From positions 1 to 36,241 of IMG/VR virus record IMGVR_UViG_3300025759_000275: a stretch of 36,241 nt of DNA; one strand, given 5' to 3'. Numbering within the stretch: position 1 is the stretch's first letter; each line of letters opens with the position of its first letter. The notes beneath the pieces are model-generated. The model had not been told where the DNA came from, made no database searches, and was given only the letters and a program-made list of their open reading frames with translations. Of this stretch, positions 3,883 to 26,248 are shown piece by piece. Position numbers and translations under genes: made by a program. The stretch comes from a virus.

Positions 3883-4272
3883 TTAGTCCATTTTAAATGT
3901 CAAATTGCCAGCAGAGAATTTCACCTCATCAGCAGCAGAAATCGTTTTGCTTGATGCCAAAGTTTCTCTTGCCAACTCATTGCCACCAGTCTGTGCATCA
4001 TGTACACTTGCAGACACTGCTGTTGCTCCACCAACTGCACTTGCAGTGAATGTGATGTCTGTTGAATTTGCCATGATTCTGCCAGTGCCATCTGTGGTGA
4101 TTGTGCCAAATGTGATTGACTGTCTGTTTGCTGATCCAGTGATTGTTGAAAGAATTGAGTTTCCAGATCCATCAAGTAAATCAACATAAACATTCGTTGG
4201 TGCTGATGCAAAGGTTGTTCCTTTCAACCAATTCAAAATCTGATCTTCTAAATACTGAGTTAAGCTTGCCAT
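3883..4272 (-). CDS. Gp80-like tail fibre/virion protein
   Basis: A 129-residue protein with the pattern of the phage tail-fibre Gp80-like family: helical start MASLTQYLEDQILNWLKG, then VYVDLLDGSG, RQSITFG, a Thr/Ser-rich beta part, a VHDAQTGGNELARETL segment and a C-terminal KTISAADEVKFSAGNLTFKMD. These small beta proteins usually sit next to the receptor-binding protein, as here (the fibre gene follows directly). It probably forms part of the fibre attachment or a virion-surface decoration. Assignment rests on remembered motif similarity. Confidence 0.65.
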   Translation of the reverse strand: MASLTQYLEDQILNWLKGTTFASAPTNVYVDLLDGSGNSILSTITGSANRQSITFGTITTDGTGRIMANSTDITFTASAVGGATAVSASVHDAQTGGNELARETLASSKTISAADEVKFSAGNLTFKMD

Positions 4273-6462: not shown

Positions 6463-7512
6463 TTATGATGCTATTTGAGCAGTAAACTGGTTGAACAAGT
6501 TCACACCACTCATGTCATCATTTACATCAAATAGATCATCTGGTGCAACTACGAATTTGTAAGTCAAACCAACAAAGAAATTCCAAGTCTCGCACTCAAG
6601 CTTTGCACGATAATCAAAGGTTAAGCCAGAGAATGGAGATGTCACTGTGCCAACAACTGTGTCAGCTTGTGTGATCTCTCTTGCTGGTGAGCCATGACCA
6701 TATCTGTTGTATTTCAACATCTGAATGGCTGCTGGTGCAAATGCAAAGAATCTCTCTGCTCCAACAATGTCATCAATCTTTCTGTCATAGATCGGCATGA
6801 TTCGAGTGCCAGCAGCCAATGCACCTTGATCAATTCCTTTTTTGTCAATACAACAACCAGCACCAATTGCTGACCAGTATTGACTCCAAAGTTTTGATCC
6901 ACCAATGGCAACAATCTTGTCATTGTACTCCATATCCGTGAACTCATATTGAACATCCTCAATCAAGTTGGTCACCCATGCACCATCTGTGTTTTTTGCA
7001 TCAACAGTGATTGCATTTGAGTTTCCAGTGCTTCTAAAATTACCAACAAGAGCAGCAGCTTGTGTGATGCCATCTGTGTTGATTTTTCTCTCAAGCACAT
7101 TGATCATCATTTGGATCTGCTGTCCAACATAAGTTGCATCATCTTGGCAACCAGTCACCAAGTCAGTGATTGGAATTGATTTCTTGATTGAGTCACCTTC
7201 TGTCTCATCAAGATCATATGTGTAGAAATTCTCAGTCAACTCTCCACCACCAGTGCAATCATTTGAATTGCTACCAACAAAATCATTGTCAGTTTCAAGG
7301 TATCTGTTGAAGTATTTGACTGTCACACCTTTGAGCTTGCCTCTTGCTGTCAATGGCTCTTGAACACCTACTTTGGCATTCTCATCACCAACAACATAAT
7401 CAAGAAAAGGATTTGATTGGTTGAACATTCCAGATGCTGCACCAAAAAAGTTTTCATCAAGTGCTGCTTGTACATTTTCGCACTCAACAAGTGAATTAAT
7501 AGTATAACTCAT
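6463..7512 (-). CDS. Major capsid protein
   Basis: A 349-residue protein at the position expected for the major head protein, directly after a scaffold-like gene. Sequence marks are typical of HK97-fold capsid proteins of this phage group: an N-terminal helix, an acidic/polar E-loop-like stretch (residues about 55-105), a long helix around QIQMMINVLERKINTDG, and late beta strands with CETWNFFVGLTYKFVVAPDD. There is no N-terminal protease target that I can identify. It is set off by a 104-nt leader and followed by a hairpin, which fits a highly expressed gene. The assignment comes from size, order and fold-like pattern rather than a unique motif. Confidence 0.75.
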   Translation of the reverse strand: MSYTINSLVECENVQAALDENFFGAASGMFNQSNPFLDYVVGDENAKVGVQEPLTARGKLKGVTVKYFNRYLETDNDFVGSNSNDCTGGGELTENFYTYDLDETEGDSIKKSIPITDLVTGCQDDATYVGQQIQMMINVLERKINTDGITQAAALVGNFRSTGNSNAITVDAKNTDGAWVTNLIEDVQYEFTDMEYNDKIVAIGGSKLWSQYWSAIGAGCCIDKKGIDQGALAAGTRIMPIYDRKIDDIVGAERFFAFAPAAIQMLKYNRYGHGSPAREITQADTVVGTVTSPFSGLTFDYRAKLECETWNFFVGLTYKFVVAPDDLFDVNDDMSGVNLFNQFTAQIAS

Positions 7513-7616: not shown

Positions 7617-8444
7617 TTATCTGGATTTGATCTTTAAGCCTTGAGCATTTTGATCAGCATCTCCAGATTTGCTGTTGTCAAATATAATTGATTTTTTTGA
7701 ATTGCCTTGACCAGCAGACATCTTGAGCAGACCAGCTTGCTTTGCCTCATCTTTGTAAATCTCAGAGAGAGTCAAGAATCTGTTGTCCTTTGCTACTCTC
7801 TGACCATTCTTATCTGTGATTCTCAATCCACTTGCATCTGAGTCATCAAGCTCAATTGTGTACTTTGATTGAATGTCATCAAGAAAACCTTTGATGGCAA
7901 GTTCTTTGGCTTTGCCTTGCAAAGTGTCAGTGAAATCAACTTCTTTGAGAGCTGCTTGCTTTTTGCTGTTGAGTTGCAAGCCCACTTTGTAATTCTGAAA
8001 CTCTGATTTGTTTTTCTCAAGCTCTTGCTCAATGTTTGACTTTTGAGATGAGATTGCATTCAAGTCACTCACTGCTTTGTTGTACTTGCCAGAGATTTCA
8101 TCAAGCTGTGCTTTGATCTCTTTGTCTGTTGCACCAGATGACTTTGCTTGTTGATTCAACTCAGCAAACTTGTTTTGCAATCTGTCAAATGCTGCATCAA
8201 AAGCTTTCTCAAAGCCAAGCTCATCAACTTCTGTTGGCTTGATCAGATTCTCATCAATGCCTTTGATTGATCTCTTGAGTTTTGTCTCAAAAGAGCCAAG
8301 AGTCTTGCCAACTATTTTGCCAACAATCTGCTTGTCCTCATGTGCCACATTTCTGCCAACATAGTTTTCATCAATTGCTGCTTTGATAGCTTGTGCCTTT
8401 TCATCATCACCAAGCTCCTCAAGAATTTTGTTCAAATCACTCAT
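7617..8444 (-). CDS. Scaffolding protein
   Basis: A 275-residue, highly charged, mostly helical protein with a central coiled coil (residues about 85-165, for example KAVSDLNAISSQKSNIEQEL) and a basic, disordered-looking end (GQGNSKKSIIF ... LKIKSR). That composition and its place immediately upstream of the major capsid gene are those of phage scaffolding proteins, which guide procapsid assembly and are then lost. No protease motif is visible, so a protease-scaffold fusion is unlikely. Confidence 0.75.
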   Translation of the reverse strand: MSDLNKILEELGDDEKAQAIKAAIDENYVGRNVAHEDKQIVGKIVGKTLGSFETKLKRSIKGIDENLIKPTEVDELGFEKAFDAAFDRLQNKFAELNQQAKSSGATDKEIKAQLDEISGKYNKAVSDLNAISSQKSNIEQELEKNKSEFQNYKVGLQLNSKKQAALKEVDFTDTLQGKAKELAIKGFLDDIQSKYTIELDDSDASGLRITDKNGQRVAKDNRFLTLSEIYKDEAKQAGLLKMSAGQGNSKKSIIFDNSKSGDADQNAQGLKIKSR

Positions 8445-8449
8445 TTGTT

Positions 8450-8866
8450 TTATTTGTATTTGGTTAAACGCTCATTTATTAACTCATTCACTTCAAAGAT
8501 ATGACCATGCATCACTTTGAGAGCTTCAAGTTTTGACTTTGATCTTGCTCTCATGATAATTGTCTTGATCTCATCAAGCTCATCTTGATCAATCTCTGGC
8601 TCTGATGCTTCAAATACTTCAACATCTTGCTCATCAGTCTGATCAGCTTTTGACTCAGCAAATGGTTGAATATTGGCAACTGGTATGTCTTGCTCAATGT
8701 GTTGTTGTCTTGGAAAGCCATTTTGATCATATTGATCACTCTCAATTGACCATCCTTTGTGAACCAATCTCTTTGCAGCAGAGAGTGCAACATCATTTTG
8801 CACTTTGTTTCCTTTTGCTATTCTGACAAACTTCTTGTTGTCATGCTTATTGATTTTCATATTCAT
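8450..8866 (-). CDS. Hypothetical protein upstream of the scaffold
   Basis: A 138-residue protein in three parts: a basic start (MNMKINKHDNKKFVRIAKG) with a short region about 25-45 (ALSAAKRLVHKGW), an acidic low-complexity middle (residues about 70-100) and a helical end (IIMRARSKSKLEALKVMHG). I recognise no family. It begins the head transcription block after the cassette and a TAAATTTG box lies just upstream (8873-8880). A head-assembly or head-decoration role is only suggested by position. Confidence 0.65.
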   Translation of the reverse strand: MNMKINKHDNKKFVRIAKGNKVQNDVALSAAKRLVHKGWSIESDQYDQNGFPRQQHIEQDIPVANIQPFAESKADQTDEQDVEVFEASEPEIDQDELDEIKTIIMRARSKSKLEALKVMHGHIFEVNELINERLTKYK

Positions 8867-8872
8867 AATTTA

Positions 8873-8880
8873 CAAATTTA
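8873..8880 (-). promoter_or_regulatory. Candidate -7 box before the head-protein block
   Basis: The minus strand reads TAAATTTG, a TAnnTTTG match, 6 nt before the ATG at 8866. It overlaps the stop codon region of the last cassette gene. It would let scaffold and capsid genes be transcribed independently of the glycosyltransferase cassette. An AT-rich chance match is possible. Confidence 0.4.
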
Positions 8881-9594
8881 ACATTTTGGTCTATACATGA
8901 ATTTTTTCTTGTCAATGGCATTCAACACAGCAGTCTGTCTCTCAGCACTTTTGGCTGCTTTGTGCCAGATGGCTGACTCTTGTGAGTTGTCTTGCTCTTT
9001 GACAAAGTCTTTTGGTCTTTGAATGCAGAGTCTTGGAATCTCTCTGTTGATGCACAGCTCTGCAACCTTGACATCAACCATGTTGTTGAAATCAGCACCA
9101 ATGTATGAAAACAAATCAACATCATCAAAGAGTGATGAGTGAAAAGCCATTGTGCCAGTGCCAAGCATGGTCACAAACTGGTCATTTTTGATCTCAGCAG
9201 AAAAGTGAACCACTTTCTGACTCCAGAAATAATCATCAACAGGATGCTTGAGATAATATGATCCATGTACACCAGCAACACATCTGTGATTCTTTTGCTT
9301 GAGCTTGAGAGCAAGTGTCTCAAAGTATTGTGGATGATAGATCAGATCATCATCACAAGTAAAATGATAATGTGGATCATCAATCATGTTGTGAGCAAGA
9401 AACTTTGATCTTGCACCATTGTCTGTCACTGGATAGCATTGAGCATCATCAATCTCTGGTGTGTAATCATTGGCAAATACATAAATTGATACTGGCACAA
9501 CAGACTGCTTGATTGATTCAATGGTCTTGATCAAGTGCTTTTCTCTTGCTTTGTGAGTTGCAATGCTCACCACTATTGGATCAAGTTTAGGCAT
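8878..9594 (-). CDS. GT-A-type glycosyltransferase
   Basis: From the ATG at 9594 the product has 238 residues. It opens with a GT-A nucleotide-binding pattern (DPIVVSIATHKAREKHLIKTIESIK) and has an acidic sugar-nucleotide/metal motif CDDDLIYHP at residues about 80-87, the DxD of this fold. A longer frame starts at 9627 but would overlap the upstream gene by 41 nt; the 9594 start gives an 8-nt ATGCCTAA overlap like others in the genome. No membrane segment, so it acts in the cytoplasm. Acceptor unknown; last gene of the glycan cassette. Confidence 0.75.
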   Translation of the reverse strand: MPKLDPIVVSIATHKAREKHLIKTIESIKQSVVPVSIYVFANDYTPEIDDAQCYPVTDNGARSKFLAHNMIDDPHYHFTCDDDLIYHPQYFETLALKLKQKNHRCVAGVHGSYYLKHPVDDYFWSQKVVHFSAEIKNDQFVTMLGTGTMAFHSSLFDDVDLFSYIGADFNNMVDVKVAELCINREIPRLCIQRPKDFVKEQDNSQESAIWHKAAKSAERQTAVLNAIDKKKFMYRPKC

Positions 9595-10228
9595 TGAACA
9601 ACTTTGTTTGGCTGGTGTGCAATTCAAATCTTTTCAAAGCAGCTTTGTGGTAATCAGCATCAATCTCACATGATGTAAGTTCAAAGCCTAAATCATGACA
9701 AGCAACTGCAATTGAGCCAGAGCCAAGATGAGAGTCAAAGATTGAATCACCTTTGTTGGCATAGTTGTCAAGCAGCCACTTGTACAACTGCACTGGCTTT
9801 TGAGTTGGATGGATTCGCAACTCTTTGTTTTTCATATCATGTTGCAGCATACCATTCCAAACAATTTCAACAATTTGAACACTTTTTATTTTTGAACAAT
9901 AAGCCAACTCAGCTCTACCAAAAGCAGTGCCTTTTTTGTCCCAGCAAATAAAACCACCACTTAAACCAAAAAAATTTGCACCCCAAACAATTTGATCTTT
10001 TGAAATTCTTTTTAATTGATTGAAATATTCAGATGATGGTTTGATGTTTTCAAATTGATGATATTTTTTTCTTTTTGCAGAATGTTTTTTTGCGTTTTTT
10101 AAATCAATAGCATCATTTGCACCATAAGGTGGATCAACAATTGCCAAATCAAATTGATTGTCAGCACACTCTCTCATGTACTCAAGACAATCAACATTCA
10201 TCATGTTTATTTTAGGCTTATGATGCAT
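9587..10228 (-). CDS. Stand-alone DNA N6-adenine/N4-cytosine methyltransferase
   Basis: A 213-residue DNA methyltransferase from the ATG at 10228 (a start at 10204 is also possible). Catalytic motif DPPYGA lies at residues 32-37, the AdoMet-binding motif late in the protein as DSHLGSGSIAVACHDLG, and the family segment RIHPTQKPVQLYKWLL between them. Motif IV before motif I marks the beta class. It probably protects phage DNA from host restriction or marks it. It is embedded between glycosyltransferase genes and overlaps both neighbours. No cognate nuclease is encoded near it. The recognition sequence cannot be read from the protein. Confidence 0.85.
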   Translation of the reverse strand: MHHKPKINMMNVDCLEYMRECADNQFDLAIVDPPYGANDAIDLKNAKKHSAKRKKYHQFENIKPSSEYFNQLKRISKDQIVWGANFFGLSGGFICWDKKGTAFGRAELAYCSKIKSVQIVEIVWNGMLQHDMKNKELRIHPTQKPVQLYKWLLDNYANKGDSIFDSHLGSGSIAVACHDLGFELTSCEIDADYHKAALKRFELHTSQTKLFNA

Positions 10229-10874
10229 TCTCTCTCTCAATGATTTGTTTGTGATATGATCTTGTTGTTTTGCCAACATATGGATCAAACAAGCTGCCAG
10301 TGTCAATTGTAGTCACTAATCTGTTGATTTGCTCATTGTTTGCAATCTCATCAATGAGAACACCAGACATCATGCCAGCACTAAACAACAGCACAAGCTT
10401 TTTGTCAAAATGCTCTGCAATGATTTTCTTGAGATGTGACCAAATCTCTTGTCTCTTTTGCCATGCATTTTTCTTTGGTATCTCAACCATGACATTGATA
10501 AAATTGAGCTTTGCAAGTGAATGATTGCCAATCATCACCACATTTCTATTGCTCAAAGCATGAAAGAGTGCTGGCATCCATCCCTTGATTGATGCATCAT
10601 GCAACACATCTGCATTGCACCACTGCTGAGGATACTTGTCAAAGTCAGTGAAAAGACCATGTTTGACTGGCTGCAAGCCAACAAAATAGTCTTGTTCTTT
10701 TTTGTATATTGCTCTCAATGCTTGACCAAGATCAACAAAGTATTTGTGATCATCGCAATTCTTGCCTTGCTTTCCAGCCATGCACATCATCTCACCATCA
10801 CCAACTCTGGCAAAGTGAAATGGCTCAAGCTTTTGCAGCTTGTCAACTATTTGATGGAATGTCAATTCTTTCAT
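10218..10874 (-). CDS. GT-D-like glycosyltransferase
   Basis: A 218-residue protein whose FHFARVGDGEMMCM motif (residues 19-32) matches the R-x-GDGE signature of GT-D-fold glucosyltransferases (DUF1792/GT-D family), where the DGE triad binds the metal and UDP-sugar. Later strands HALSNRNVVMIGNHSL and KLVLLFSAGMMSGVLIDE resemble Rossmann-like strands of that family. It overlaps the FkbM gene upstream by 32 nt and the methyltransferase downstream by 11 nt. Donor and acceptor are unknown. The family call rests on one short motif plus context. Confidence 0.6.
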   Translation of the reverse strand: MKELTFHQIVDKLQKLEPFHFARVGDGEMMCMAGKQGKNCDDHKYFVDLGQALRAIYKKEQDYFVGLQPVKHGLFTDFDKYPQQWCNADVLHDASIKGWMPALFHALSNRNVVMIGNHSLAKLNFINVMVEIPKKNAWQKRQEIWSHLKKIIAEHFDKKLVLLFSAGMMSGVLIDEIANNEQINRLVTTIDTGSLFDPYVGKTTRSYHKQIIERENAS

Positions 10875-11466
10875 TGATTCTGCTTTTCATTTTTTCAATC
10901 ATCTTTTTATTTCGCTTTTGCTGTTGTGGATGATACCAAAAATCAACCCATTTGCCAGATCCAAGCACCAAAGTTTGATATTGCCATTTCAAATCTTTCA
11001 AGTGAGTCACCTTGTGCATATCTGATCTTGCTCCAGAAAGAATGTTGAACTTGTTCCACAATTCACTCTCAATCAAATCATTGAGCAGATGCCACTCAGC
11101 ACCTTCAATGTTGTACCTCAGCACATTGAAATCACTCAAGACAATCTCTTTTCTTTCAATCAAAGTGCTAAGTTTCACACCTTGCACTTTCACAAAGTCT
11201 GTTGTCACATTGTTCTTGTCTGGAAATATCGAGTTGCCATGACCATCACTTGACTCACTCAAATACAATGGCAACAATCTCTCTGTGTTGTTGATTGCAT
11301 AGTTGAGAATCTTTGCTTGTGGATGATTCTCTTTCAATTGCTCAATGTATTCTGGATGAGCTTCAATGCCATACATGGTCACATCATGACCAAGTGCAGC
11401 AAGTTGAAACATATCAATTTCAAAGCCATCCTTGTGCAGACCTATGTCAATATATGTGATTTTCAT
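10843..11466 (-). CDS. FkbM-like SAM-dependent methyltransferase
   Basis: A 207-residue protein with the FkbM methyltransferase order of motifs: YIDIGLHKDGFE (AdoMet loop, residues 5-16), MYGIEAHPEYIEQL (acidic residue after strand 2), VQGVKLSTLIE and LRYNIEGAEWHLLNDLI. FkbM enzymes O-methylate sugars or polyketides, so it probably caps or decorates the glycan made by neighbouring enzymes. It overlaps the gene before it by an ATGA and the gene after it by 32 nt. The basic C-terminal tail (KRNKKMIEKMKSRINER) lies in the overlap. Confidence 0.8.
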   Translation of the reverse strand: MKITYIDIGLHKDGFEIDMFQLAALGHDVTMYGIEAHPEYIEQLKENHPQAKILNYAINNTERLLPLYLSESSDGHGNSIFPDKNNVTTDFVKVQGVKLSTLIERKEIVLSDFNVLRYNIEGAEWHLLNDLIESELWNKFNILSGARSDMHKVTHLKDLKWQYQTLVLGSGKWVDFWYHPQQQKRNKKMIEKMKSRINERIDIPSNS

Positions 11467-12017
11467 TTCAAATGACTTTTATCTGATGGATTCTGATTTC
11501 TGTATCTGTGAAAGACATACACACCAAGCATCAAGCCAAGTCTGCCACCTTTTGTGTACAAGTCTTTGTGCCATCTATTATCAACACCAAGCATTCCAGC
11601 ACCTTTGAATGGCACTCTCTTGAATGTTGATACTTTGGCGCAAATAAACAAGCCAGAGAGCAAGCTGAATGGTTTCATCTCTACAACTCCAAGACCACTC
11701 TCTCTCTGTTTTTTCTCTGCAATTTTTACATGATGCAAGACATCAAAGTTGTTTGACATCTCTCTTGCATGACATTGCTTGAGCTGTCCAACTCTGTTGG
11801 TCATGCAAGTGAATGCAGTGAAATCTCTTGAGTGAGCATCAATGATGGCTTGTATGTGTTGACCAAAGTTTGATGTCAAGAACATGACATCAGCATCAAC
11901 AAAGCAAAGCCACTCATCATCATCATATTTGTCAACAATTCTGTTGTATTCTTTTGCAAGCTGCTTGTCTGCACAATATGGTGACACAAAGTTGACTTGA
12001 GTCTTTGATTGTTTCAT
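11463..12017 (-). CDS. Glycosyltransferase with DxD motif
   Basis: Starting at the ATG 12017 (coupled to the upstream stop as TGATG), the product has 184 residues. It carries a GT-A type metal motif WLCFVDADVMFL at about 37-48 and a conserved-looking FSLLSGLFICAKVSTFKRV acceptor-side segment, ending with LGVYVFHRYRNQ. It is shorter than common GT2 enzymes because the N-terminal nucleotide half is abbreviated, a feature also seen in other phage cassette enzymes. Substrate unknown; acts with the neighbouring transferases. Confidence 0.72.
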   Translation of the reverse strand: MKQSKTQVNFVSPYCADKQLAKEYNRIVDKYDDDEWLCFVDADVMFLTSNFGQHIQAIIDAHSRDFTAFTCMTNRVGQLKQCHAREMSNNFDVLHHVKIAEKKQRESGLGVVEMKPFSLLSGLFICAKVSTFKRVPFKGAGMLGVDNRWHKDLYTKGGRLGLMLGVYVFHRYRNQNPSDKSHLK

Positions 12018-12625
12018 CAAATTAAGCTTTTAAATGCATCAAGACTGATTTCATTGAGCAATAATGCTCTTTTTTTCTTGTACTCATCCCAAGTAACATG
12101 ATGACCAGACCATTGTCCTTGATCATTAATTTGATTCAATGAATTAAGGAAAACACCAAGACCCTCATCAGTTGCAATGGTGAATGTTGCTTGTGGGAAT
12201 ATTTCTCTGATCTTTATCCATGCTTTGTATGTGTCACCATTCCATCTGCCAATTGGCTTTGGTCTTGGCACAACTGTCTCAAAATACACTGTTGGTGAGC
12301 AGTCATGCAAGATGATGATGCCATCCAAGCTCAAGCATTGAAAGGCATTCCAGAAATCTTTCTCAACTTGATCTGCTTGATGCAATCCATCAATGAAAAT
12401 CACATCAAACACTTGCTCATTGCTATCAAAGAAATCATCACTGGTCATCTGAAAGATTCTGTTGCTCTTGTATATTGGTGATGGATCAATGCCAGTCTTG
12501 TCAGCACACTCAACTTTGAGAAAGTTGTCACCATTGTGAATGCCTATCTCAAGGTATTTTGGATCACTATTCTCAAATTTTGTTTTTAAATAGTGATTGA
12601 TCACTTGCCATCTATGCATGGTCAT
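12017..12625 (-). CDS. Class I SAM-dependent methyltransferase (Methyltransf_24-like)
   Basis: A 202-residue protein. YLEIGIHNGDNFLKV (residues 24-38) is the AdoMet-binding loop, GIDPSP follows strand 2, and FDVIFIDGLHQADQVEKD plus IIILHDCSP are the strand-4/5 motifs typical of Methyltransf_24 enzymes. This family includes sugar O-methyltransferases. The ATG lies inside the last codons of the upstream transferase gene. Together with the FkbM-like enzyme it gives the cassette two candidate sugar methylases. Confidence 0.8.
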   Translation of the reverse strand: MTMHRWQVINHYLKTKFENSDPKYLEIGIHNGDNFLKVECADKTGIDPSPIYKSNRIFQMTSDDFFDSNEQVFDVIFIDGLHQADQVEKDFWNAFQCLSLDGIIILHDCSPTVYFETVVPRPKPIGRWNGDTYKAWIKIREIFPQATFTIATDEGLGVFLNSLNQINDQGQWSGHHVTWDEYKKKRALLLNEISLDAFKSLI

Positions 12626-13241
12626 ATATTAAAAATCTTGAACCAATCAAGTCATTCCACTCAACAATCTCTGGAGTCATGTTGTGCTTGTCAAGCAAGT
12701 ATGGCAAGAAAATCTGATCTCTGTGAGTGAACCATTTTGCATGATGAAACCAATCAAATGAGAATATGTCAACAGCTCTTGTGTTTGGTCGCATCATCAG
12801 ACCAGCAGCATACAAGCCAGCATCTTTGTTCCATCTGTACTCTCTCAACATCAATCTTGATCTCTCAAGATCAGCTCTGTTTGCTTTGCCAAGCTTTTTG
12901 CAAAGCTCAATTTCTTTGTAGGCACAATGATGAAATGGATGATTGACAATCATGAAATGTGGCAACTCATCAAGATCACAATTGACTCTGATGTTTGCAT
13001 CATGATGAAACACTTTTTTGAATGGCTCTGGATAAAACTGAGCTGCACCAAGCAACTTGAAATGTCTTGATGCAAGTTGTGGATTGCTCACTGACTCAAC
13101 TCTCTTGACTTGATACACATCAGACTTGATGTCTTGATCTGTAAAAAGCACATAAGTCCAGTCATGATTGATGTTGTCTGGCAATGGATCACGCCACACA
13201 TCTTTGTCACCAAAAAGGTATGAGTAGCAAATTTTTGTCAT
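12612..13241 (-). CDS. DUF616/TOD1-MUCI70-like glycosyltransferase
   Basis: A 209-residue protein, first gene of the cassette. NPQLASRHFKLLGAAQFYP followed by VFHHDANIRV (residues about 53-86) and MIVNHPFHHCAYKEIELC resemble the DUF616 glycosyltransferase domain, in which the D-x-N/D triplet takes the place of the DxD motif. A TATATTTG promoter box lies 21 nt upstream (13262-13269), so this gene probably starts a separate transcript covering seven overlapping genes down to 8878. The acceptor is unknown. Confidence 0.7.
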   Translation of the reverse strand: MTKICYSYLFGDKDVWRDPLPDNINHDWTYVLFTDQDIKSDVYQVKRVESVSNPQLASRHFKLLGAAQFYPEPFKKVFHHDANIRVNCDLDELPHFMIVNHPFHHCAYKEIELCKKLGKANRADLERSRLMLREYRWNKDAGLYAAGLMMRPNTRAVDIFSFDWFHHAKWFTHRDQIFLPYLLDKHNMTPEIVEWNDLIGSRFLIYDHA

Positions 13242-13277: not shown

Positions 13278-14195
13278 TTATTCAACTGCTGGTGGCAAAT
13301 AGCCAAGACCTCTGGCTCTTTGAATTGCTGATGGTGGCACTGCTTCAATTGGCACAGCAGCAAAGACATGATCACAATTGTATCCACCAGCATATGTGAA
13401 AATAGTTGCTGGTGTTGTGCCTTTTCTGCGACCTTGCCAGCCATTTGATGTTCTACATTTGCCAAGATTTTGCAAAGCTCCCCAGCTTTCAATTTCTCTC
13501 TTGTGATAGTATTTGCTTTGTCTCTCTTGACAAAAGCATCTTGAGTCACTCACCAGTGAACCACTGTATCTGTAAAAATCAAAGCTGTATTGAGATTCAA
13601 TTGTCTTTTGATACCTTCTGTCACTCGCTGCAAAAGTATCTCTCACAAGTGTCTTTCTGTTGCCCAGCAGATTGCTCTCAACTTGCTCATTGCCCACAAC
13701 AATCTGCTGCACTGATTGAATGACATCAGTGAGTCTTGCTCCAGATGTGACAGAGTCTCTCAATGCTGATTTCAATGGCTCAATCAAAGCTTGATTCACT
13801 GCTTGCTCATCTAATAAAGCCAACACATCAAGTTGTGATTGTCTCAGCACTTGTTGAAAGATTCTCTTGTCATCAAAAGTGCCAAAAGCTGTTGTCATGT
13901 ATTCAGCAGCCAATGCACCTTGTTGCTCAAGAGAGCCAGCAAAGTCTCTCACAGCTTCAATGTATGATCCACCAAACAACACATCATTTGCTCTTGCACC
14001 AATCTTCTCAATGAGTGCAATGTTCTTTGTGTTGAGAATTACTTGCCCAGATGCATTTGTCTCAAGCTGATTGATGAGAATTGACACTTGTCTCATCACA
14101 TCTCTCTGTGCTTTCTCTATTGCTCCAAATAGCTCATTTGGTAGCTTGTCAATGTTGGCTGACCTTTGCTCAATGAGATCATTCAGTGATGCCAT
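13278..14195 (-). CDS. Minor head protein (MuF/SPP1-gp7-like)
   Basis: A 305-residue protein following the portal gene with a TAATG overlap. The first two-thirds are helical; the C-terminal third has the cysteine/histidine pattern of the head-morphogenesis MuF domain: LVSDSRCFCQERQSKYYHKREIESW, then GRRKGTTPATIFTYAGGYNCDHVFAAVP. In that family the protein binds the portal and is packaged in small numbers. There is no toxin extension after the domain, unlike some MuF proteins. Length and order agree with the assignment. Confidence 0.78.
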   Translation of the reverse strand: MASLNDLIEQRSANIDKLPNELFGAIEKAQRDVMRQVSILINQLETNASGQVILNTKNIALIEKIGARANDVLFGGSYIEAVRDFAGSLEQQGALAAEYMTTAFGTFDDKRIFQQVLRQSQLDVLALLDEQAVNQALIEPLKSALRDSVTSGARLTDVIQSVQQIVVGNEQVESNLLGNRKTLVRDTFAASDRRYQKTIESQYSFDFYRYSGSLVSDSRCFCQERQSKYYHKREIESWGALQNLGKCRTSNGWQGRRKGTTPATIFTYAGGYNCDHVFAAVPIEAVPPSAIQRARGLGYLPPAVE

Positions 14196-15949
14196 TAATC
14201 TTCAATATCATTGTCAAAGATGGTTTGTGCAGTCATGACATTTGAATTTGTCTCATCTTGTGCCATCTTTTCAAGCATCTCTCTTTGCTGATCAAATGTC
14301 AAAGACCAAAAGCTGTCATCCATTTGTGAGATATATGTGTCAAATGACCAATGCAATGTGGCTTTCCATTTAGGCAACAAGCCAGTTGCCATGATAGCAA
14401 TCACATCAGTTGTGCTTTGCAAGTAATAGTTGTCAATCTTTTGCTTGAGATCAACAGTCATTTTTAGCTTGTCATTGTTTGCAAATCTCACACTCATCAG
14501 CTCTTTGGTCATTTCACCTCTGATTGCATCTGGCAAATCTTGTGAATCTCTCAACTCAGCACTCAAGTCTGTCTCTGATCGCAAAGCAAAGCTCACTGGT
14601 GGCTTGACTGATGGTGATTGAAAATCAACGTATCTCACATTGCCAAGAATGTCAATTCCCCACTTGATGAGATTGAACATCTGATTTGAATACTTTGAAA
14701 TAAATGAGAACAGCTCCTCACGATCAATCAACTTGCCTGTTGCTGTCTCTTTGCCACTCTTTTTGTCCAAGCTGATTTCAATACCCATGAAAGAGAATGA
14801 CACAGCAACATTGTGATTCACTTCATTTCTCAATGCATCAATCATTGATGAGTCTTTCTTGACATAAGTCACTGGATCAAATGGCAATGGCTCAGAGTCA
14901 TTCATTCTGTTTGGCACTTGCACTTGAGTCACTCTCAATGGTGATTGCATTGATCTCTTTCCAGATCCATTGCATGATGGACAACTCTTTTGCTCACTAT
15001 CATCATTGATGACATATCCATCAACACATCCATCAAAGTCACACTCATCAACCCACTCAATGCGCTCCATGAATACATTTGAGACCTTGTTCACTCTCAA
15101 ATTTGTTGCATCAATCAAAGCATCATTGAGATTTGGCACTGCATCCATGAAGAGACTCTCATACCAAATTGCTCTGTCTTGTGTTTTTGCCTCACCACCA
15201 AGCATCTGCACTGGTAATTTGCCAAGATTATGCTCATAATAAAGAACAGCTTCAAACTTATAATCAAGTTTTTTGCCAATTTGCTTGAGAATCCAAATGT
15301 TTTTATGGTCATATAGTTTGAAAATCAAACCAGATTGCTCTTTTCTGTTGCCATATTCAACAACAGACTTTTCACTCATCAGCAGCAATGCCATCTCACT
15401 GTTGATGTCAATCACTTTTGGTGAGTGATACAAGACAAAGATTGGCTCAACAAGTTCTGTGTCAACAATCTCTGCATCAACAAAGTCAAGTGCAATCACT
15501 GCATTGGCATCCTCATCTTTTGCTGGCTTGACAATGTTTTCAAAATAACTCATGAGAGAGTTGAATTTTGGAAAGTCTTTTGTGAAATATGCCTCAGCAG
15601 ATTGATCAGCATATACACCAGAGTCATTGCCCCAGTCAGTAATGGAATAGTTTTGTGGATTGAAAATTCTGTTGATCTGTGTGGTTGCCTTTTTCCACAC
15701 TGGTCTTGTGATTGGCTGATATGTGGCTCTTTTGTAGTCAAACTCCTCTTGAGTCTCATTTGGTGCTGATTCACTGATCAAGACATCTGGAAATGTGTCA
15801 AGCTGTGAATGCACTTTTACTTTTTCATACAACTCAACAGCATGAGAATATCTTTCATCTGTCCACTCTTTGCTTTTGTGAACAGACTCTGCATATGGTA
15901 TCACAACACCACTCAGCAGATCATCAATCAGTGTTTCGTCAAAAACCAT
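14195..15949 (-). CDS. Portal protein with internal zinc-ribbon-like insert
   Basis: A 584-residue protein from the ATG at 15949, which follows the stop of the 20-residue gene by one base (an in-frame GTG at 15973 is less likely). Size, the place just before the minor head gene, and helical segments such as VKPAKDEDANAVIALDFV and ETATGKLIDREELFSFISKYS fit a portal ring subunit through which DNA is packaged. At residues about 303-332 there is a Cys cluster, CDFDGC then CPSCNGSGKR, resembling a DnaJ-type zinc ribbon. The C-terminal part is acidic. Confidence 0.8.
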   Translation of the reverse strand: MVFDETLIDDLLSGVVIPYAESVHKSKEWTDERYSHAVELYEKVKVHSQLDTFPDVLISESAPNETQEEFDYKRATYQPITRPVWKKATTQINRIFNPQNYSITDWGNDSGVYADQSAEAYFTKDFPKFNSLMSYFENIVKPAKDEDANAVIALDFVDAEIVDTELVEPIFVLYHSPKVIDINSEMALLLMSEKSVVEYGNRKEQSGLIFKLYDHKNIWILKQIGKKLDYKFEAVLYYEHNLGKLPVQMLGGEAKTQDRAIWYESLFMDAVPNLNDALIDATNLRVNKVSNVFMERIEWVDECDFDGCVDGYVINDDSEQKSCPSCNGSGKRSMQSPLRVTQVQVPNRMNDSEPLPFDPVTYVKKDSSMIDALRNEVNHNVAVSFSFMGIEISLDKKSGKETATGKLIDREELFSFISKYSNQMFNLIKWGIDILGNVRYVDFQSPSVKPPVSFALRSETDLSAELRDSQDLPDAIRGEMTKELMSVRFANNDKLKMTVDLKQKIDNYYLQSTTDVIAIMATGLLPKWKATLHWSFDTYISQMDDSFWSLTFDQQREMLEKMAQDETNSNVMTAQTIFDNDIED

Positions 15950-15950
15950 T

Positions 15951-16013
15951 TTATTTCTTTTTTCCGCAACCACAGCCTTTGCGTTTGTTGCTCTTGTTCA
16001 AATTCAGTTTCAT
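15951..16013 (-). CDS. 20-residue Cys/Lys peptide between glycosyltransferase and portal
   Basis: A tiny frame with ATG at 16013-16011, overlapping the upstream TGA as TGATG, and TAA at 15953-15951, one base before the portal ATG. It encodes a basic peptide ending KRKGCGCGKKK. Three lines support it: exact fit between two coupled genes, stop and start spacing identical to real genes here, and a Cys-Gly-Cys-Gly-Lys ending that I recall from other short flavophage proteins. Function unknown; metal or nucleic-acid binding is conceivable. Confidence 0.55.
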   Translation of the reverse strand: MKLNLNKSNKRKGCGCGKKK

Positions 16014-16861
16014 CAGTGTTTATATCTCATTAATTTATGAATGTCTTTTCTTGGTGACATTCCAATGATCTCTCTCCAGTTTGATCTGTTCTCTCTCTGA
16101 TACAAATCATACACAAATCTGTGATTGTATCTGTGGTTACCATAGCAACCAAGAACAAAAAAGTCTTTTTTTACATCATCAACACTTTTGTTGATATGAT
16201 AGTCAATTCTCCTTTGAAAATAGACTGGAAATCTTGTCTCAAAGTAAACATCAGCAAGATTGTTCTTGCTCATTGAGATGCCAAGATACAACTCATCTGG
16301 ATGCATACCATGAAACCACTCTGTTGCCATGTTTTCAAATGGCTCATCAATAGCTTTCAAAGCATCAGCAAAGAGTTTTTTTGTTGTCTTGCTCTTTCTC
16401 ACAAACATGATTGATGAGTTGCAACCAATTGCTTGCTTTTTCAAGTTGTATTGCTTGGCAACACCATCATGATCATCAACCCAGTGCATTGCATCTTTTT
16501 GGATCTTGAAATCTTGCTCTTGATCAAACAATGGTGAGATGTCTTGCAACACAACACCATCAACATCAAGATACAATGTTTCATCAAAATGCAAAAGTGA
16601 ATACATTGAGAGCTTGCCTTTGCCAGCTTGAATGCGTTTGTTGTCTGTGTATGCTTGAGAGCTGATGTCTGTCAGCACATCAAAGATGTTTGCTCTGTCA
16701 CCAAGCTCTTTGATGTAGTGATCATGGATGAGCTGAATTGGCACATTTGGTGAGTGCTTTCTCAAACTCAAAGCCATGTTGAATGCAAATTGAAAGAAAA
16801 TAGGTTTCCCAAAAGCTAATAAACTAACTCCTTGAGAAACCATATTTTGTTCTTTGCTCAT
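16013..16861 (-). CDS. GT8-like glycosyltransferase
   Basis: From the ATG at 16861 (TGATG overlap with the gene before) the product has 282 residues. SLLHFDETLYLDVDGVVLQDISPLF (about 88-112) contains the D-x-D metal site with the flanking pattern of GT8/GT-A enzymes, and SSIMFVRKSKTTKKLFADAL is a typical acceptor-side segment. It is separate from the seven-gene cassette, placed between a tail-protein gene and the portal gene. An inserted role in virion or host-surface glycosylation is inferred. No membrane segment. Confidence 0.78.
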   Translation of the reverse strand: MSKEQNMVSQGVSLLAFGKPIFFQFAFNMALSLRKHSPNVPIQLIHDHYIKELGDRANIFDVLTDISSQAYTDNKRIQAGKGKLSMYSLLHFDETLYLDVDGVVLQDISPLFDQEQDFKIQKDAMHWVDDHDGVAKQYNLKKQAIGCNSSIMFVRKSKTTKKLFADALKAIDEPFENMATEWFHGMHPDELYLGISMSKNNLADVYFETRFPVYFQRRIDYHINKSVDDVKKDFFVLGCYGNHRYNHRFVYDLYQRENRSNWREIIGMSPRKDIHKLMRYKH

Positions 16862-17409
16862 CAATCAAAGATTTCATCTGCATTGGATGGTGCAGCACTT
16901 GGCACTGGCAACTTGATTGTGTCCCACATTGCTTGTGCAGCATACACTTGAACTGTCTTGTCATCTGCAAGAACTTCAAGTTTTGCCATGAAATTCACAT
17001 CAATTGCATCAACAATCTTGATGGTGCTGTTTTTTGGCTCATACCATACAACTCCACCAGCAGTGTACTCATTCAAGTCATCATACAAAGTTGAATTTCC
17101 AGCAGTCACTGCTCTGTCTCTCCATGTAAGCACATGAGAGAAAGAATCAACTCTGTCTGGCAATCCGGCAACCTCAGATTCAGATGTTGTCTCTGATGCT
17201 TGAGCATATTCACCTCTGATTTCCTTGATGATTTTGACTGAGCCATCTGCAATTGCAGCATCCCACTCAGCATTGGATGTGAAATCAGTGATTGTTGTTT
17301 GATTTGGTTTGATCAAAGCAATTGACTTGATGCCACCAAACAATCTTTCATTTCCACAAATCACTTCATGATCTCCAATCTCACCAAAGCAATATTTTTC
17401 TAAACTCAT
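16861..17409 (-). CDS. Candidate major tail tube protein
   Basis: A 182-residue soluble protein with a mixed beta pattern (GGIKSIALIKPNQTTITDF, KIIKEIRGEYAQA, HVLTWRDRAV, VDAIDVNFMAKLEVLADDKTV) and an acidic end. Size and fold pattern fit a tube or other abundant tail protein. It begins a new transcript: a strong minus-strand terminator (17502-17531) and a TATTTTTG box (17493-17500) lie upstream, the only such arrangement inside the structural region, which suggests high expression. Its order after the distal tail genes is unusual for a tube protein, so another virion protein is possible. Confidence 0.5.
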   Translation of the reverse strand: MSLEKYCFGEIGDHEVICGNERLFGGIKSIALIKPNQTTITDFTSNAEWDAAIADGSVKIIKEIRGEYAQASETTSESEVAGLPDRVDSFSHVLTWRDRAVTAGNSTLYDDLNEYTAGGVVWYEPKNSTIKIVDAIDVNFMAKLEVLADDKTVQVYAAQAMWDTIKLPVPSAAPSNADEIFD

Positions 17410-17600: not shown

Positions 17601-18809
17601 CTAAATATTTCCAGAGTTTTTCACAATGCCTGTTGATTGAGCTGCTTCATAGCAAGTAAATGAGACAGCAGCTTGCTCATAACCATTGTAATTTGGTGAA
17701 TATTCATCAGCAGTCTTGACAAATCTTCTTGAATCGCCATTCAGCTCAATGGTGAAATTGTTCACATTTGTCAAATATGCCAAACATTCATGGACATACC
17801 AAGGCACAACATCTGTTGCAATAGTCACTTTTTTATTGATCTGGCTGTACAAGTTGCGCCATTGCTCAGAGCTGTTTTGATATGTCTGACCATCTTCATT
17901 TTCAAATACAGCTTGACCAACTTGCAATTTCTTGAGTCCAAATGTCAATGTGCTTGAGCTGATGTCTGACCATTTCAATCCAAAAACACCATCACCAGTG
18001 TGAGAGAACTGCATCTGATAGAACTTTTCATCAGTGATGATAAATTGAACTGACTTTCCAATGCCAGCAGATGTGTTGGAATTGAAATAATATGGTTTGT
18101 TTTCTTCCAGATTCTCAGTCAATGCATTGATTTCAAAAGTGATGTAATTCTCATCCATTGTCTCAGCAGTGATTGCAATCTCACTGTCATCACTACATTT
18201 CACAAGAATCATGTCAATCTCTTGCAATCTCACTCTTGTCATCTGCAATGCTGTGGCTGTGCCAGCAGATGTGAGTTGAAAGCCAACATCAACAGCACCA
18301 GTGCCACCAGTCCATTGAAAGAATGTCTCAAGCTCTCCTGTTGTGTTGATAGTGATTGCAGCTCTCTCTGTCCAACCACCAGCAGCACCATTGGCTGATG
18401 TCTGTATCTCAAGATCAAGATCAGATGTGGCAAATGCACAAACATCAACTTTGAATCTGTACCAGCAGCCAGTTGTCAACTCAAGTTGCTGATACAAGAC
18501 TGTTGAGTTTGATCCAGAGCCTTTTGAGACTGTGAATGAGTTGTCACCACTGCACAAGCTCACTGACCATGATGAATCAACACCAGAGTTGTATTGTGAC
18601 CAGTTTGTGAGATTTGATGGTTGATTGTTGTCAGTGAATTTTTGATTGTACCAAAGTTCATTGACTTGCTTGGTTTGAAACTTGATCAAGTCTGTTGTTT
18701 TATATAAAACTGCAAACTGAGCAAGATCAGTTTCATCAATCAGCTCTGTGTCAAACTCATCAAAGAATCTGATTGGCTGTGCTTTGATGATTGCGTCTGT
18801 TTTACTCAT
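17601..18809 (-). CDS. Distal tail protein with carbohydrate-binding-like domain
   Basis: A 402-residue protein overlapping the upstream gene by 8 nt. Residues about 60-200 form a jelly-roll-like domain rich in Gly, Ser and aromatic residues (WSVSLCSGDNSFTV, LELTTGCWYRFKVDV, GWTERAAITINTTGELETFF) resembling carbohydrate-binding modules; the rest is beta-rich with IELNGDSRRFVKTADEYSPN near the end. Following the hub-like protein, it is probably part of the tail tip and may contact the host surface. No enzymatic site is visible. Confidence 0.65.
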   Translation of the reverse strand: MSKTDAIIKAQPIRFFDEFDTELIDETDLAQFAVLYKTTDLIKFQTKQVNELWYNQKFTDNNQPSNLTNWSQYNSGVDSSWSVSLCSGDNSFTVSKGSGSNSTVLYQQLELTTGCWYRFKVDVCAFATSDLDLEIQTSANGAAGGWTERAAITINTTGELETFFQWTGGTGAVDVGFQLTSAGTATALQMTRVRLQEIDMILVKCSDDSEIAITAETMDENYITFEINALTENLEENKPYYFNSNTSAGIGKSVQFIITDEKFYQMQFSHTGDGVFGLKWSDISSSTLTFGLKKLQVGQAVFENEDGQTYQNSSEQWRNLYSQINKKVTIATDVVPWYVHECLAYLTNVNNFTIELNGDSRRFVKTADEYSPNYNGYEQAAVSFTCYEAAQSTGIVKNSGNI

Positions 18810-20592
18810 TTGAAATTGTTTTGAATTGTACTAAACCAGTTTTGATGTCAACAGACATTGAGAGAATCCACATATCTGTTGCCGTGAGACCTTCACCACT
18901 CACAGAGATTTTCACTGATGGATCTGCAACAATAGCATTGACATCAACTTGTGAGATTGGTGTTGTAAACTCATATTCTTTGTCAAGAATGATGGTGTCA
19001 TTGTCAAACTGAACTCCACCAGATGTGGCTTGTTTTCCAGTGCTGGTCATCCAATATTTTTGTCTCCAGAGAGTGCCAAGAAAAGCATTGAATGTCTTGA
19101 AAGCTGTGATCAATAAGTTGGCAACAAGAGATGGTGTGATTGGATATTCTTTTGCTCTCTGAGTGCCAGAGTCATCAAAAGTGTCAATCAAGATTGTGTC
19201 TTGATCAAAGTCAGTCTCATTCTCTTGCAATGAGTCAATTGCTTGATTGCTGGTGATAAATTCGTTTTGAGCATTGAATGAGCCTTGACCACATTGTTCT
19301 GTTGTTTGATAGCCTTTTGGCAATGTCGTATTCAAATCAGCCACAAAATAATCTCTGAAACTTGATGAATAAGATGCTGTGTCTGACTTGTAATCATCAG
19401 CACCATCTTGATGATTGATTGAGTTGAGCTTGAAATCATTGTTTCTCTTGACGGAGATATTTCTCACACCAGTGATTGTCACAGATGCTGCTGAGGCTTG
19501 ATCAAAAAATGTTTCTGTTTTCTCAAGCTTCATTGTTGGCTGACCACCATCATCAAATATTTTGAAAGTCATGTCAAACAATCTGTTCATTTCTCTTGTG
19601 AGAATTGAGAGCTTGTTTGAGATGGTTGCTGTGATGTCAGTGCCAGCATAGTTGAATCTAAATGCATTTCCTTTGATCATCATCAAGTTGCTCATTCCTT
19701 GAGTTGTATCTTGAACTTTTGATGTTGTGTTTGATGTGCCACCAACAGTTGTCACTGAGATGATATCAAATGCTGAATAAATATCATAATCATTTGCGCC
19801 ATTGATCACAAGCTGAAATGGTGCGCCCATATCAAACTCAAAGCCAGTCACAGAGCTATTTCTTGCAATCTCAGCAAATGTTGACACAATTGTTCTTTCA
19901 TTTGATGTATTGAATGCTTGAGTTGCTGTAAAAGTGCCAATCTCACTCACAATTGTGATGGTGAATGAGACACCAATGCCACCAGGCTGAATGTTCCAAA
20001 TTGCAACTTGATTGTCATCACTTTCAAACCAATCACTTTCAAACACAACTTGATTGTTGGTGATGTATGAAATCATATGACTGAAAATATCACTCACAAA
20101 GTACATTTTTACTGTGCCAGATGAGCTGAAATCAATCTTGACTGAGTTGAGTGATACTTCTGTTGGCACAAGACCAGTGATTGCAGTGCCATCAAGAGAC
20201 TTTGTTGCACCAGAGTTGACTGAGATATCTTGCCTATCAAGTATGATCTGAGTCAAATTCTGATCAACAATCTTGCATTTTGCAATCTGCTTTTGCAAGT
20301 CAAACTCTACATCATAGCTGTAAATGCGACCATTGAAAAGTGTTTGAAATGCATCATCTGGATTGACTTTGAACTCAATCAGCACATCAAACTCCCAGCA
20401 ATCAGATGCAGTGTCAAGTGCATCAATGTATGAATAAGCAGAGCCAACCCACTCAAGATTGGCTGTGTATTGATAAAATATTCCTTTGATATCATTGTCT
20501 CTCTCAATTGACAGCTCTGAGTCATTCCAATTGATCGGATCATCAACAACTTGTGGTGAGCCATCTGGGTCAAAAGTGAATCTGTATATCAT
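18802..20592 (-). CDS. Tail hub/baseplate-like protein
   Basis: A 596-residue beta-rich protein starting inside the tape measure stop (ATGA). The beginning (MIYRFTFDPDGSPQVVDDP ... NWNDSELSIERDNDIKG) and sections such as FDVLIEFKVNPDD and NGRIYSYDVEF recall the distal tail or hub proteins that cap the tail tube in siphoviruses of Bacteroidota. Central and C-terminal parts show repeated beta strands and no protease or lysozyme motif. Position right after the tape measure gene is the main support. Confidence 0.68.
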   Translation of the reverse strand: MIYRFTFDPDGSPQVVDDPINWNDSELSIERDNDIKGIFYQYTANLEWVGSAYSYIDALDTASDCWEFDVLIEFKVNPDDAFQTLFNGRIYSYDVEFDLQKQIAKCKIVDQNLTQIILDRQDISVNSGATKSLDGTAITGLVPTEVSLNSVKIDFSSSGTVKMYFVSDIFSHMISYITNNQVVFESDWFESDDNQVAIWNIQPGGIGVSFTITIVSEIGTFTATQAFNTSNERTIVSTFAEIARNSSVTGFEFDMGAPFQLVINGANDYDIYSAFDIISVTTVGGTSNTTSKVQDTTQGMSNLMMIKGNAFRFNYAGTDITATISNKLSILTREMNRLFDMTFKIFDDGGQPTMKLEKTETFFDQASAASVTITGVRNISVKRNNDFKLNSINHQDGADDYKSDTASYSSSFRDYFVADLNTTLPKGYQTTEQCGQGSFNAQNEFITSNQAIDSLQENETDFDQDTILIDTFDDSGTQRAKEYPITPSLVANLLITAFKTFNAFLGTLWRQKYWMTSTGKQATSGGVQFDNDTIILDKEYEFTTPISQVDVNAIVADPSVKISVSGEGLTATDMWILSMSVDIKTGLVQFKTISNE

Positions 20593-24955: not shown

Positions 24956-26248
24956 TTATATATACTTTTTTGGCTTGATGACGAAATCACCCATGAAAGC
25001 ATTGAGTAAGTATCTGAAAGCATCAGCATGATCAGCTCTCTGGCTCTCTTTGTTTCTGTTCTTTTTCAAAATGTTGCCTTCATCATCTGCCTCCACATAT
25101 TGACAATCAATCACCAGCTGTGGACACTTGTCTGCATTGATCATCACATCTGGATGCTGACTCAATATGAAATTCACCAAGTGTCTATTCTCAGAGACTC
25201 TTGGGTTTGATCTTGGAACAGCCATTCTCTTGCTTGACACATTGAGCTGTGATCTGATCATCTGCCAAGCATCAATGTTGTTCTGTTGAGTGATCTCTTT
25301 CTTTCGCTGCATGGCATCACCAGTGAAATAAGCTCTGGAGAGTTGAGCAGTTGAGAACTTTGATTTGATTCTCTGACACATCTTGTGAACATCACCATCA
25401 AAGAGAGTCAGCTCATCAAGCACATGAACATGATGTCCAGAGCTGTCTCTATATATCTGAGCAATGATGCACACAAATGGATCAACATTGAAGTCAAAAG
25501 AGAATATGAGTGGAAATCTGTCATCAAGCTCAACATTGCCAGTGTGCTTTGCCAGCTCAAAGTTGTAGAAATATGGTGATTGCACCTCAGCTCTACCCCA
25601 TGCACCTTGATAAAAAATTCTGTAATAATTTGGATTTGATTTTGCCATCATCTTGACTTCAGAGATGTACTCTTGATCAATGAATGGATTGTCAAGCATT
25701 GTTGAGTGATGCACATGATCACCATCTCTCTGCTCATCAAGTCTTGCTTTTGACCAGTGTCTCTCATCAACTGGATTGAATGTGCAAATCACTTGTTTAT
25801 AGAATGGTGTCTCACCACGCAATCTCAAGATGAGCTGATCAAAGCTGTTCTTGTCAACTTCTGGACACAGCTCCTCAATCCAGATGCCAGTGATCTTTGC
25901 AAGTGACTTGAGTTTCTCTGGGTCATCAAGACCATATGTGATGATCTCAGAGCCAGTTGGCTTGTAGAGCAATTTCATCTCAGTCTTGTTGATATCAAAG
26001 AATTGATTGAGATTCATCTCAGAGATTCTCATGGTCAGCTCTTTGAACACAGATTCTCTGATTGTCTTGGCAACTTTTCTCACAGCCACAAATCTGTGAT
26101 TTGGCTCAGTGATGCATCTCAAGATAAGCTTGAATGATGCAAAGACTGACTTGCCAGATCCAGCTCCACCAAGGATGAAAAGATATTTGCTGTGGTTGTT
26201 GGTGAGATTGACAAATTTCTCTGGCAGCTTGAAATTTACATCAGCCAT
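24956..26248 (-). CDS. terL: Terminase large subunit
   Basis: A 430-residue DNA-packaging motor of the Terminase_3/PBSX type. ATPase: Walker A GGAGSGKS at residues 27-34, Walker B GIWIEE at 121-126 with the catalytic Glu. Nuclease: IFSFDFNVDPF with the first metal Asp near 250 and HADAFRYLLNAF near the C-terminus carrying the last Asp. Length is normal for the family. It cuts concatemeric phage DNA and drives it into the procapsid through the portal. Its ATG overlaps the small-subunit stop by 8 nt. Confidence 0.93.
   Translation of the reverse strand: MADVNFKLPEKFVNLTNNHSKYLFILGGAGSGKSVFASFKLILRCITEPNHRFVAVRKVAKTIRESVFKELTMRISEMNLNQFFDINKTEMKLLYKPTGSEIITYGLDDPEKLKSLAKITGIWIEELCPEVDKNSFDQLILRLRGETPFYKQVICTFNPVDERHWSKARLDEQRDGDHVHHSTMLDNPFIDQEYISEVKMMAKSNPNYYRIFYQGAWGRAEVQSPYFYNFELAKHTGNVELDDRFPLIFSFDFNVDPFVCIIAQIYRDSSGHHVHVLDELTLFDGDVHKMCQRIKSKFSTAQLSRAYFTGDAMQRKKEITQQNNIDAWQMIRSQLNVSSKRMAVPRSNPRVSENRHLVNFILSQHPDVMINADKCPQLVIDCQYVEADDEGNILKKNRNKESQRADHADAFRYLLNAFMGDFVIKPKKYI

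Follow-up and report, generated by a model that had tools for sequence, protein, structure and literature searches.

The viral record IMGVR_UViG_3300025759_000275 of IMG/VR, a single stretch of 36,241 nucleotides (nt) that is termed the window, carries an island of glycosyltransferase and methyltransferase genes among its probable head genes, and this island is likely to constitute a late-expressed soluble pathway that glycosylates the phage's own virion proteins and provides the glycan with exchangeable O-methyl capping. The window genes lie on the minus strand, to which all gene coordinates of the window given below refer, and seven open reading frames (ORFs) with overlapping ends span positions 8878-13241 between the probable minor head and probable scaffold genes, as a first-pass annotation of this DNA had described. 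In the order of transcription, they encode a TOD1/MUCI70 glycosyltransferase (GT), a Methyltransf_24 enzyme, a GT of the family phrog_14179 (termed GT14179), an FkbM-type methyltransferase, a GT-D-like GT, an N6/N4 DNA methyltransferase and a GT2-like GT. The enzyme classes named by that annotation were right according to Pfam and PHROG matches and catalytic motifs, while its count of four transferases has to be raised to five, since the GT encoded at 16013-16864 had been missed. The boundaries of the unit are to be redrawn so that the core comprises the four island GTs and Methyltransf_24, with the fifth GT upstream of the portal gene, and the exchangeable genes are those of FkbM and the DNA methyltransferase. 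The analysis shows the families and motifs of the enzymes, the order, conservation, selection and exchange of their genes, and the recurrence in the same slot.

The first island gene, whose start is separated by 36 bp from the end of the minor head gene, encodes the TOD1/MUCI70 (DUF616-type) enzyme of 209 amino acids (aa; GT 1, 12612..13241), which matches Pfam TOD1_MUCI70 (4.4e-6), is found in the relatives designated L003, L004, L005, L008 and L058, and is homologous to the N-terminal half of gp40 of Cellulophaga phage phi12:1, itself a TOD1_MUCI70 protein (7.4e-7). GT14179 (GT 2, 11463..12020) is a compact core GT-A enzyme of 185 aa, which matches phrog_14179 (7.2e-30) and bears a DxD motif, D42xD44, that is invariant across 27 sequences. 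Structure prediction, a check suggested by the first-pass annotation, was run on this enzyme with an alignment of the window and viral-contig sequences only, and AlphaFold returned a confident model (pLDDT 89.5) with a GT-A fold. In a fold search of the PDB, ppGalNAc-T2 ranked first and polypeptide GalNAc-transferases were nearest, followed by chondroitin polymerase, the GT domain of lysyl hydroxylase and collagen galactosyltransferase, while the top match in BFVD was a GT of Cellulophaga phage phi18:2. These matches of the predicted structure fit a protein acceptor, yet they prove a GT-A fold only.

The GT-D-like core enzyme (GT 3, 10218..10874, 218 aa) matches PF22882 (9.6e-8), possesses a conserved RVGDGE motif and is kept in all window-type relatives that cover its position. 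The GT2-like GT-A core enzyme (GT 4, 8878..9627, 249 aa), of which the N-terminal part is recombined, gives a weak GT2-like Pfam match below the cut-off (0.0099) and carries a TCDDDL motif, of which CDDDL is invariant in 4 homologues. Immediately upstream of the portal gene, the GT8-like enzyme (GT 5, 16013..16864, 283 aa), which is conserved in L003-L005, matches Nucleotid_trans just under the cut-off (4.8e-4), shows a DxD motif in LDVDGV, and gives weak profile matches to GT8 structures including Skp1 galactosyltransferase, glycogenin and LgtC (E 0.005-0.09). A sequence search of the PDB yielded no match for the GT-D-like, FkbM, Methyltransf_24, GT14179 or portal proteins and a spurious weak match only for TOD1; likewise, no match was obtained against phage records by megablast, or against 50,697 phage records by tblastn of the TOD1, GT-D, GT2 and FkbM proteins.

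The core methyltransferase, Methyltransf_24 (12017..12625, 202 aa; Pfam 1.7e-8), is a class I S-adenosylmethionine (SAM) O-methyltransferase that contains FIDGLH and HDC motifs and is homologous to gp39 of phi12:1. The DNA-methylase motif DPPY/NPPY is absent from the Methyltransf_24 enzymes of the window, L005 and phi12:1, whereas the true methylase at 9587-10306 has DPPY, and the DNA methyltransferase reading of this protein, which is the annotation of phi12:1 gp39, was rejected. The annotated DNA methyltransferase gp39 itself (L009:10886-11353), which lacks DPPY and carries the Methyltransf_24 motif FIDGDH, is on that account probably an O-methyltransferase, as judged from its motifs; in the publication on phi18:1, the structural module is said to include a DNA methyltransferase (PMC11946311). 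The FkbM-type enzyme (10843..11466, 207 aa; Pfam 8.1e-8) occupies an exchangeable slot. The DNA N6/N4 methyltransferase (9587..10306; relatives begin at about 10240, 217 aa) matches N6_N4_Mtase (3.1e-17). It had been placed in the cassette by the first-pass annotation, but it is missing from L004, which is 98% identical to the window, and from L005, and it is probably a passenger rather than a working part of the glycan pathway, because it is absent in close relatives and arrived with the recombined part of the GT2-like gene. A second DNA methyltransferase of the genome is a ParB-N/DNA-methylase fusion upstream of the terminase gene (26609-27781).

The interleaving of a DNA methyltransferase gene in the island would suit DNA hypermodification, in which the GTs would glycosylate modified phage DNA bases alongside the methylase, and a related GT2-like protein beside GT14179 in another locus (L051:46-1407) weakly resembles the TET-associated glycosyltransferase (TAGT) family, below the cut-off. 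This explanation is nevertheless very improbable, as close relatives keep all GTs without the DNA methyltransferase and Methyltransf_24 is devoid of DPPY; moreover, among the scanned window proteins of a contig that may be incomplete, neither TET/JBP nor a hydroxymethylase nor any other enzyme that hydroxylates bases was detected. Base glycosylation of the T4-like or TET-associated kind was rejected, its required partner genes not being found in those proteins.

Comparison with close relatives distinguishes a stable core from variable methyltransferases. The four GTs and Methyltransf_24 are retained in all window-type relatives spanning the island, and the core order is identical in the window, L003, L004, L005 and L058. 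The DNA methyltransferase is absent in L004, from which the N-terminal part of the GT2-like enzyme has diverged while the remainder is 93-100% identical in nt, so that the methylase came in together with a recombined part of that gene. In L003 and L008 (97-98% identical), FkbM is precisely missing and GT14179 runs straight into GT-D, while L005 (75% portal identity) possesses no DNA methyltransferase and a Methyltransf_24/TylF-like enzyme instead of FkbM. The more distant L058, which is 57-62% identical to the window in head genes and 35-57% in most cassette genes, holds the four GTs, Methyltransf_24 and FkbM. The FkbM genes of the window and L058 share 90-98% nt identity over most of their length and the flanks only 47-70%, the mark of a recent transfer of FkbM between phages. 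By comparison, the probable major capsid protein (MCP; 6463..7512, 349 aa) is 88% identical to that of L005 and 100% to those of L004 and L008, although the cassette content differs.

Genes that come and go, such as those of the DNA methyltransferase and FkbM, and the intergenic insertions seen in L008 and L058 are what would be expected of mobile cargo ('morons') collected where the head genes leave a gap that tolerates insertions, with diverse moonlighting roles and no common target. However, the core of four GTs and Methyltransf_24 is inherited as a unit with constant gene order in the window, L003, L004, L005 and L058, TOD1 and GT14179 are fused in other lineages, and the core is under purifying selection, with ratios of nonsynonymous to synonymous substitution (dN/dS) among the tested core genes of 0.05-0.20 for the comparison with L003 and 0.16-0.28 for that with L005, in which dS is saturated. 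The island is not due to chance, and the cargo explanation is regarded as improbable. The insertion in L008 (59-760) comprises about 700 bp with minus-strand ORFs between the end of the minor head gene and TOD1, and none occurs in the window.

The same enzymes recur beside head genes in other phages. When relatives of GT14179 were gathered irrespective of position, 47 loci were obtained, and by our own count 39 of them adjoin head genes: six contigs that belong to the lineage of the window itself, phi12:1, phi17:1 and phi18:1, L021, 25 related contigs around L036, L051, L014/L015 and L027. Core enzymes recur between the portal gene and the protease and MCP genes of phages whose head is of another type; a comparison of thin profiles detected no homology of the portal, MCP and minor head proteins of the window with those of the Cellulophaga type, so that this slot holds the same enzymes in two head types. 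TOD1 and GT14179 form one fused protein in the Cellulophaga phages and the L036 group, which is independent evidence that both act together. The L036-type order is portal, methyltransferase, a 216-aa gene, the fused TOD1-GT, protease and MCP; the 216-aa protein (L036:6730-7380) resembles a GT on visual inspection (YAHCKGVTRP), with neither a Pfam match nor a relative in phage records. In the Chitinophaga eiseniae DSM 22224 prophage (L062), the portal, protease and capsid genes match Pfam. Among 299 genomes of the Chitinophaga order, GT14179 occurs in one, the prophage-bearing genome, which indicates that it is phage-specific and not a host polysaccharide enzyme.

Several observations weigh against virion glycosylation. 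About 8 of the 47 GT14179 loci show no head gene, and Escherichia coli phage ukendt carries the family beside lysis and primase genes, together with three other GTs. The fold match of GT14179 is a general GT-A one (TM 0.55) with many other GT-A enzymes close behind. The recurrence amounts to two to three independent events only, the mycobacteriophages being the third, because a single head type is common to the Cellulophaga phages and most of the related contigs. For the portal, minor head, scaffold and MCP proteins of the window, neither Pfam nor PHROG gave a significant match, and their names follow from gene order and length; the position of the island given by the first-pass annotation stands, and the labels of its neighbours lean on synteny. 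Two further genes of the window, those of the tape measure (20589-22568) and the terminase (24956-26248), do match family profiles and support these labels independently, as do other phages in which the enzymes are flanked by annotated or Pfam-matched head genes. Furthermore, the acceptor site and the glycan are predicted only.

Some of these points would favour a modification of host surface glycans, in which the GTs and methylases would remodel lipopolysaccharide (LPS) or capsule late in infection, either for superinfection exclusion or to prevent progeny from sticking to debris. Soluble GTs of the LPS-core type are able to act in the cytoplasm, and E. coli phages, ukendt among them, do carry the family away from head genes; LPS modification was also raised by the authors of the phi18:1 study for the GT of that phage (PMC11946311). 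This explanation is considered unlikely in view of the head-operon location in two unrelated head types, the phage-specific rather than host-like nature of the key GT, the slot shared with the virion-glycosylation set of mycobacteriophages, and the family matches, which include no flippase, no polymerase and no membrane gene of the Gtr type. Gtr-type serotype conversion was likewise rejected, as scans of the cassette, structural and replication proteins of a possibly incomplete contig revealed no GtrA flippase, GtrB bactoprenol glucosyltransferase or membrane Gtr. The suggestion of the first-pass annotation that a glycan is built and capped is accordingly best supported with a virion acceptor, and much less so with host polysaccharide.

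For virion glycosylation, we infer the acceptor, the sugars, the order of steps and the benefit as follows. The island would be transcribed together with the head operon. A promoter of its own, claimed previously, was dropped, since promoter-like matches are rarer than in shuffled sequence (21 against 28.2 +/- 4.6 expected) and, among the matches listed, none lies in the 36-bp gap before TOD1. A GT-A enzyme would then start a sugar on the side chain of an abundant structural protein, most likely capsid or tail tube, and the candidates for this step are GT14179, the nearest to polypeptide GalNAc-transferases, and TOD1, which is fused to GT14179 in relatives. Host nucleotide sugars would serve as donors, and the remaining GTs would lengthen the glycan, after which Methyltransf_24, together with FkbM or a second Methyltransf_24 where present, may O-methylate the sugars. 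Because no strongly hydrophobic segment occurs in the cassette proteins (best 19-residue Kyte-Doolittle (KD) mean 1.76) and no flippase or polymerase was found among the family matches, cytosolic glycosylation of an assembling structural protein would be the simplest pathway. Methylation would be a variable end step, and sister phages would differ in glycan capping in the manner of serotypes, as methyltransferases are gained and lost against a background of constant GTs and an unchanged capsid protein. The phage probably benefits from a particle with a different surface chemistry, which could, for example, withstand the glycosidases that polysaccharide-degrading hosts produce, or adhere differently. 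A candidate acceptor, and candidate abundant virion protein (tail tube?), is the conserved 182-aa protein at 16861..17409, whose gene overlaps that of the GT8-like enzyme by 4 bp and which is 90% identical to its counterpart in L005 and 100% to that in L004. A Ser/Thr-rich acceptor stretch was sought, and the richest regions (3883-4272, 17601-18809 and 18802-20592) offered no convincing candidate.

A broader proposal, which is put forward tentatively and is somewhat more doubtful than not, is that unrelated phages have repeatedly, and independently of one another, used the portal-to-capsid interval to assemble swappable islands of glycan-building genes, and that exchange there switches the virion sugar coat with the capsid protein untouched, as bacterial O-antigen clusters do for cells. 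The exchange meant here is the transfer of FkbM, the alternative methyltransferases and the recombined N-terminal, probably donor-binding part of the GT2-like enzyme.

Among the flanking genes, the probable portal gene (14195..15973, 592 aa), named from position and length only, has no Pfam, PHROG or PDB sequence match; it is shorter at the 3' end by about 220 bp than in L003 and L004 (670 aa), and L002, which is 99.97% identical to the window, has the same short form. The probable minor head protein (13278..14195, 305 aa), named from its position, is conserved in L005 and L058, and the L058 protein (710-2179) bears a C-terminal ADP-ribosyltransferase domain (ADPrib_exo_Tox 5.2e-20, ART 3e-9) that the window homologue lacks. 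Directly after the island lies the gene of a small, fast-evolving head-region protein (8450..8866, 138 aa), which is 39% identical to that of L005 against 71-88% for its neighbours, followed by the probable scaffold gene (7617..8444, 275 aa), designated from its position and weak coiled-coil-like matches. Structure prediction of the probable MCP from two sequences gave a pLDDT of 28, and the fold was not confirmed.

The window probably derives from a virus of bacteria with a host in the Bacteroidota, a phylum that we infer from the Cellulophaga and Chitinophaga relatives of the island and not from the window itself. Virion glycosylation has already been reported in mycobacteriophages, and the same layout is encountered here with different enzymes in what are probably Bacteroidota phages. 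If the proposed pathway is true, sugar-coating of particles would be widespread and convergent, natural variants with the same capsid and different methyl caps would be available for testing the function of the coat, and the reading of the Cellulophaga genes, labelled as a DNA methyltransferase and a GT acting on LPS or regulation, would be corrected. Core homologues are present in cultured systems, namely the C. baltica phages phi12:1, 17:1 and 18:1 and the C. eiseniae DSM 22224 prophage.

The previous statement that no system of this composition had been described proves too strong, as the Cellulophaga phages carry core homologues and cluster O mycobacteriophages carry an O-methyltransferase with three GTs in the same slot. 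In streptococcal Fap1, a GT-D-type enzyme (dGT1, DUF1792) extends a protein-bound glycan through sequential GTs (PMC5063993); that is a bacterial adhesin system, however, and the family matched by the window protein is PF22882 (GT-D-like), its match to GT-D itself (PF08759) falling below the cut-off. The C. eiseniae prophage presents portal, Methyltransf_24-like, GT2-like, GT14179, protease and HK97 capsid genes, but differs in its first GT (GT2/GT7C-like), in extra intervening genes and in its HK97-type head. Closer in descent, gp39-gp40 of phi12:1, with their equivalents in phi17:1 and phi18:1 (Helsingorvirus), comprise homologous Methyltransf_24, GT14179 and TOD1 domains and are placed between head morphogenesis and prohead protease/MCP genes; in contrast with the window, they are two genes only, with TOD1 and the GT fused, no GT-D, GT2, FkbM or GT8, and an unrelated portal and MCP, and their annotation names a DNA methyltransferase and a GT, LPS modification being one of the proposed roles (PMC11946311).

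In cluster O mycobacteriophages (Corndog, Catdawg and Firecracker), an O-methyltransferase and three GTs lie in a portal-to-protease slot of the window type, and the order portal, O-methyltransferase, GT, GT, GT, protease, MCP was confirmed in Firecracker and Catdawg. The enzymes are made in infected cells and were not detected in purified virions (PMC4351075), while glycans on mycobacteriophage capsid and tail tube are reported in papers citing Freeman et al. 2023 (PMC12619734, PMC11600133), as far as these citing accounts go. According to the literature, the glycan has been detected in mycobacteriophages, whereas that of the window is predicted. The O-methyltransferase gp33 of Catdawg (Methyltransf_24 5e-9, TylF-like) belongs to the same Pfam family as the window protein at 12017-12625, and both systems have overlapping genes and several small soluble GTs. 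Cluster O differs in its Actinobacterial host, its head genes and the lack of matched TOD1, FkbM or GT-D members, and no significant match of the window GTs to Catdawg gp34-36 was obtained by blastp or HMM comparison. The window shares with virion glycosylation of the mycobacteriophage type the GTs in a structural operon (head identity by synteny), the accompanying O-methyltransferase and the placement between portal and capsid-maturation genes. Membership by descent is not claimed, because the GTs show no homology to those of mycobacteriophages, and it is in layout and enzyme classes that the island appears to resemble the cluster O system.

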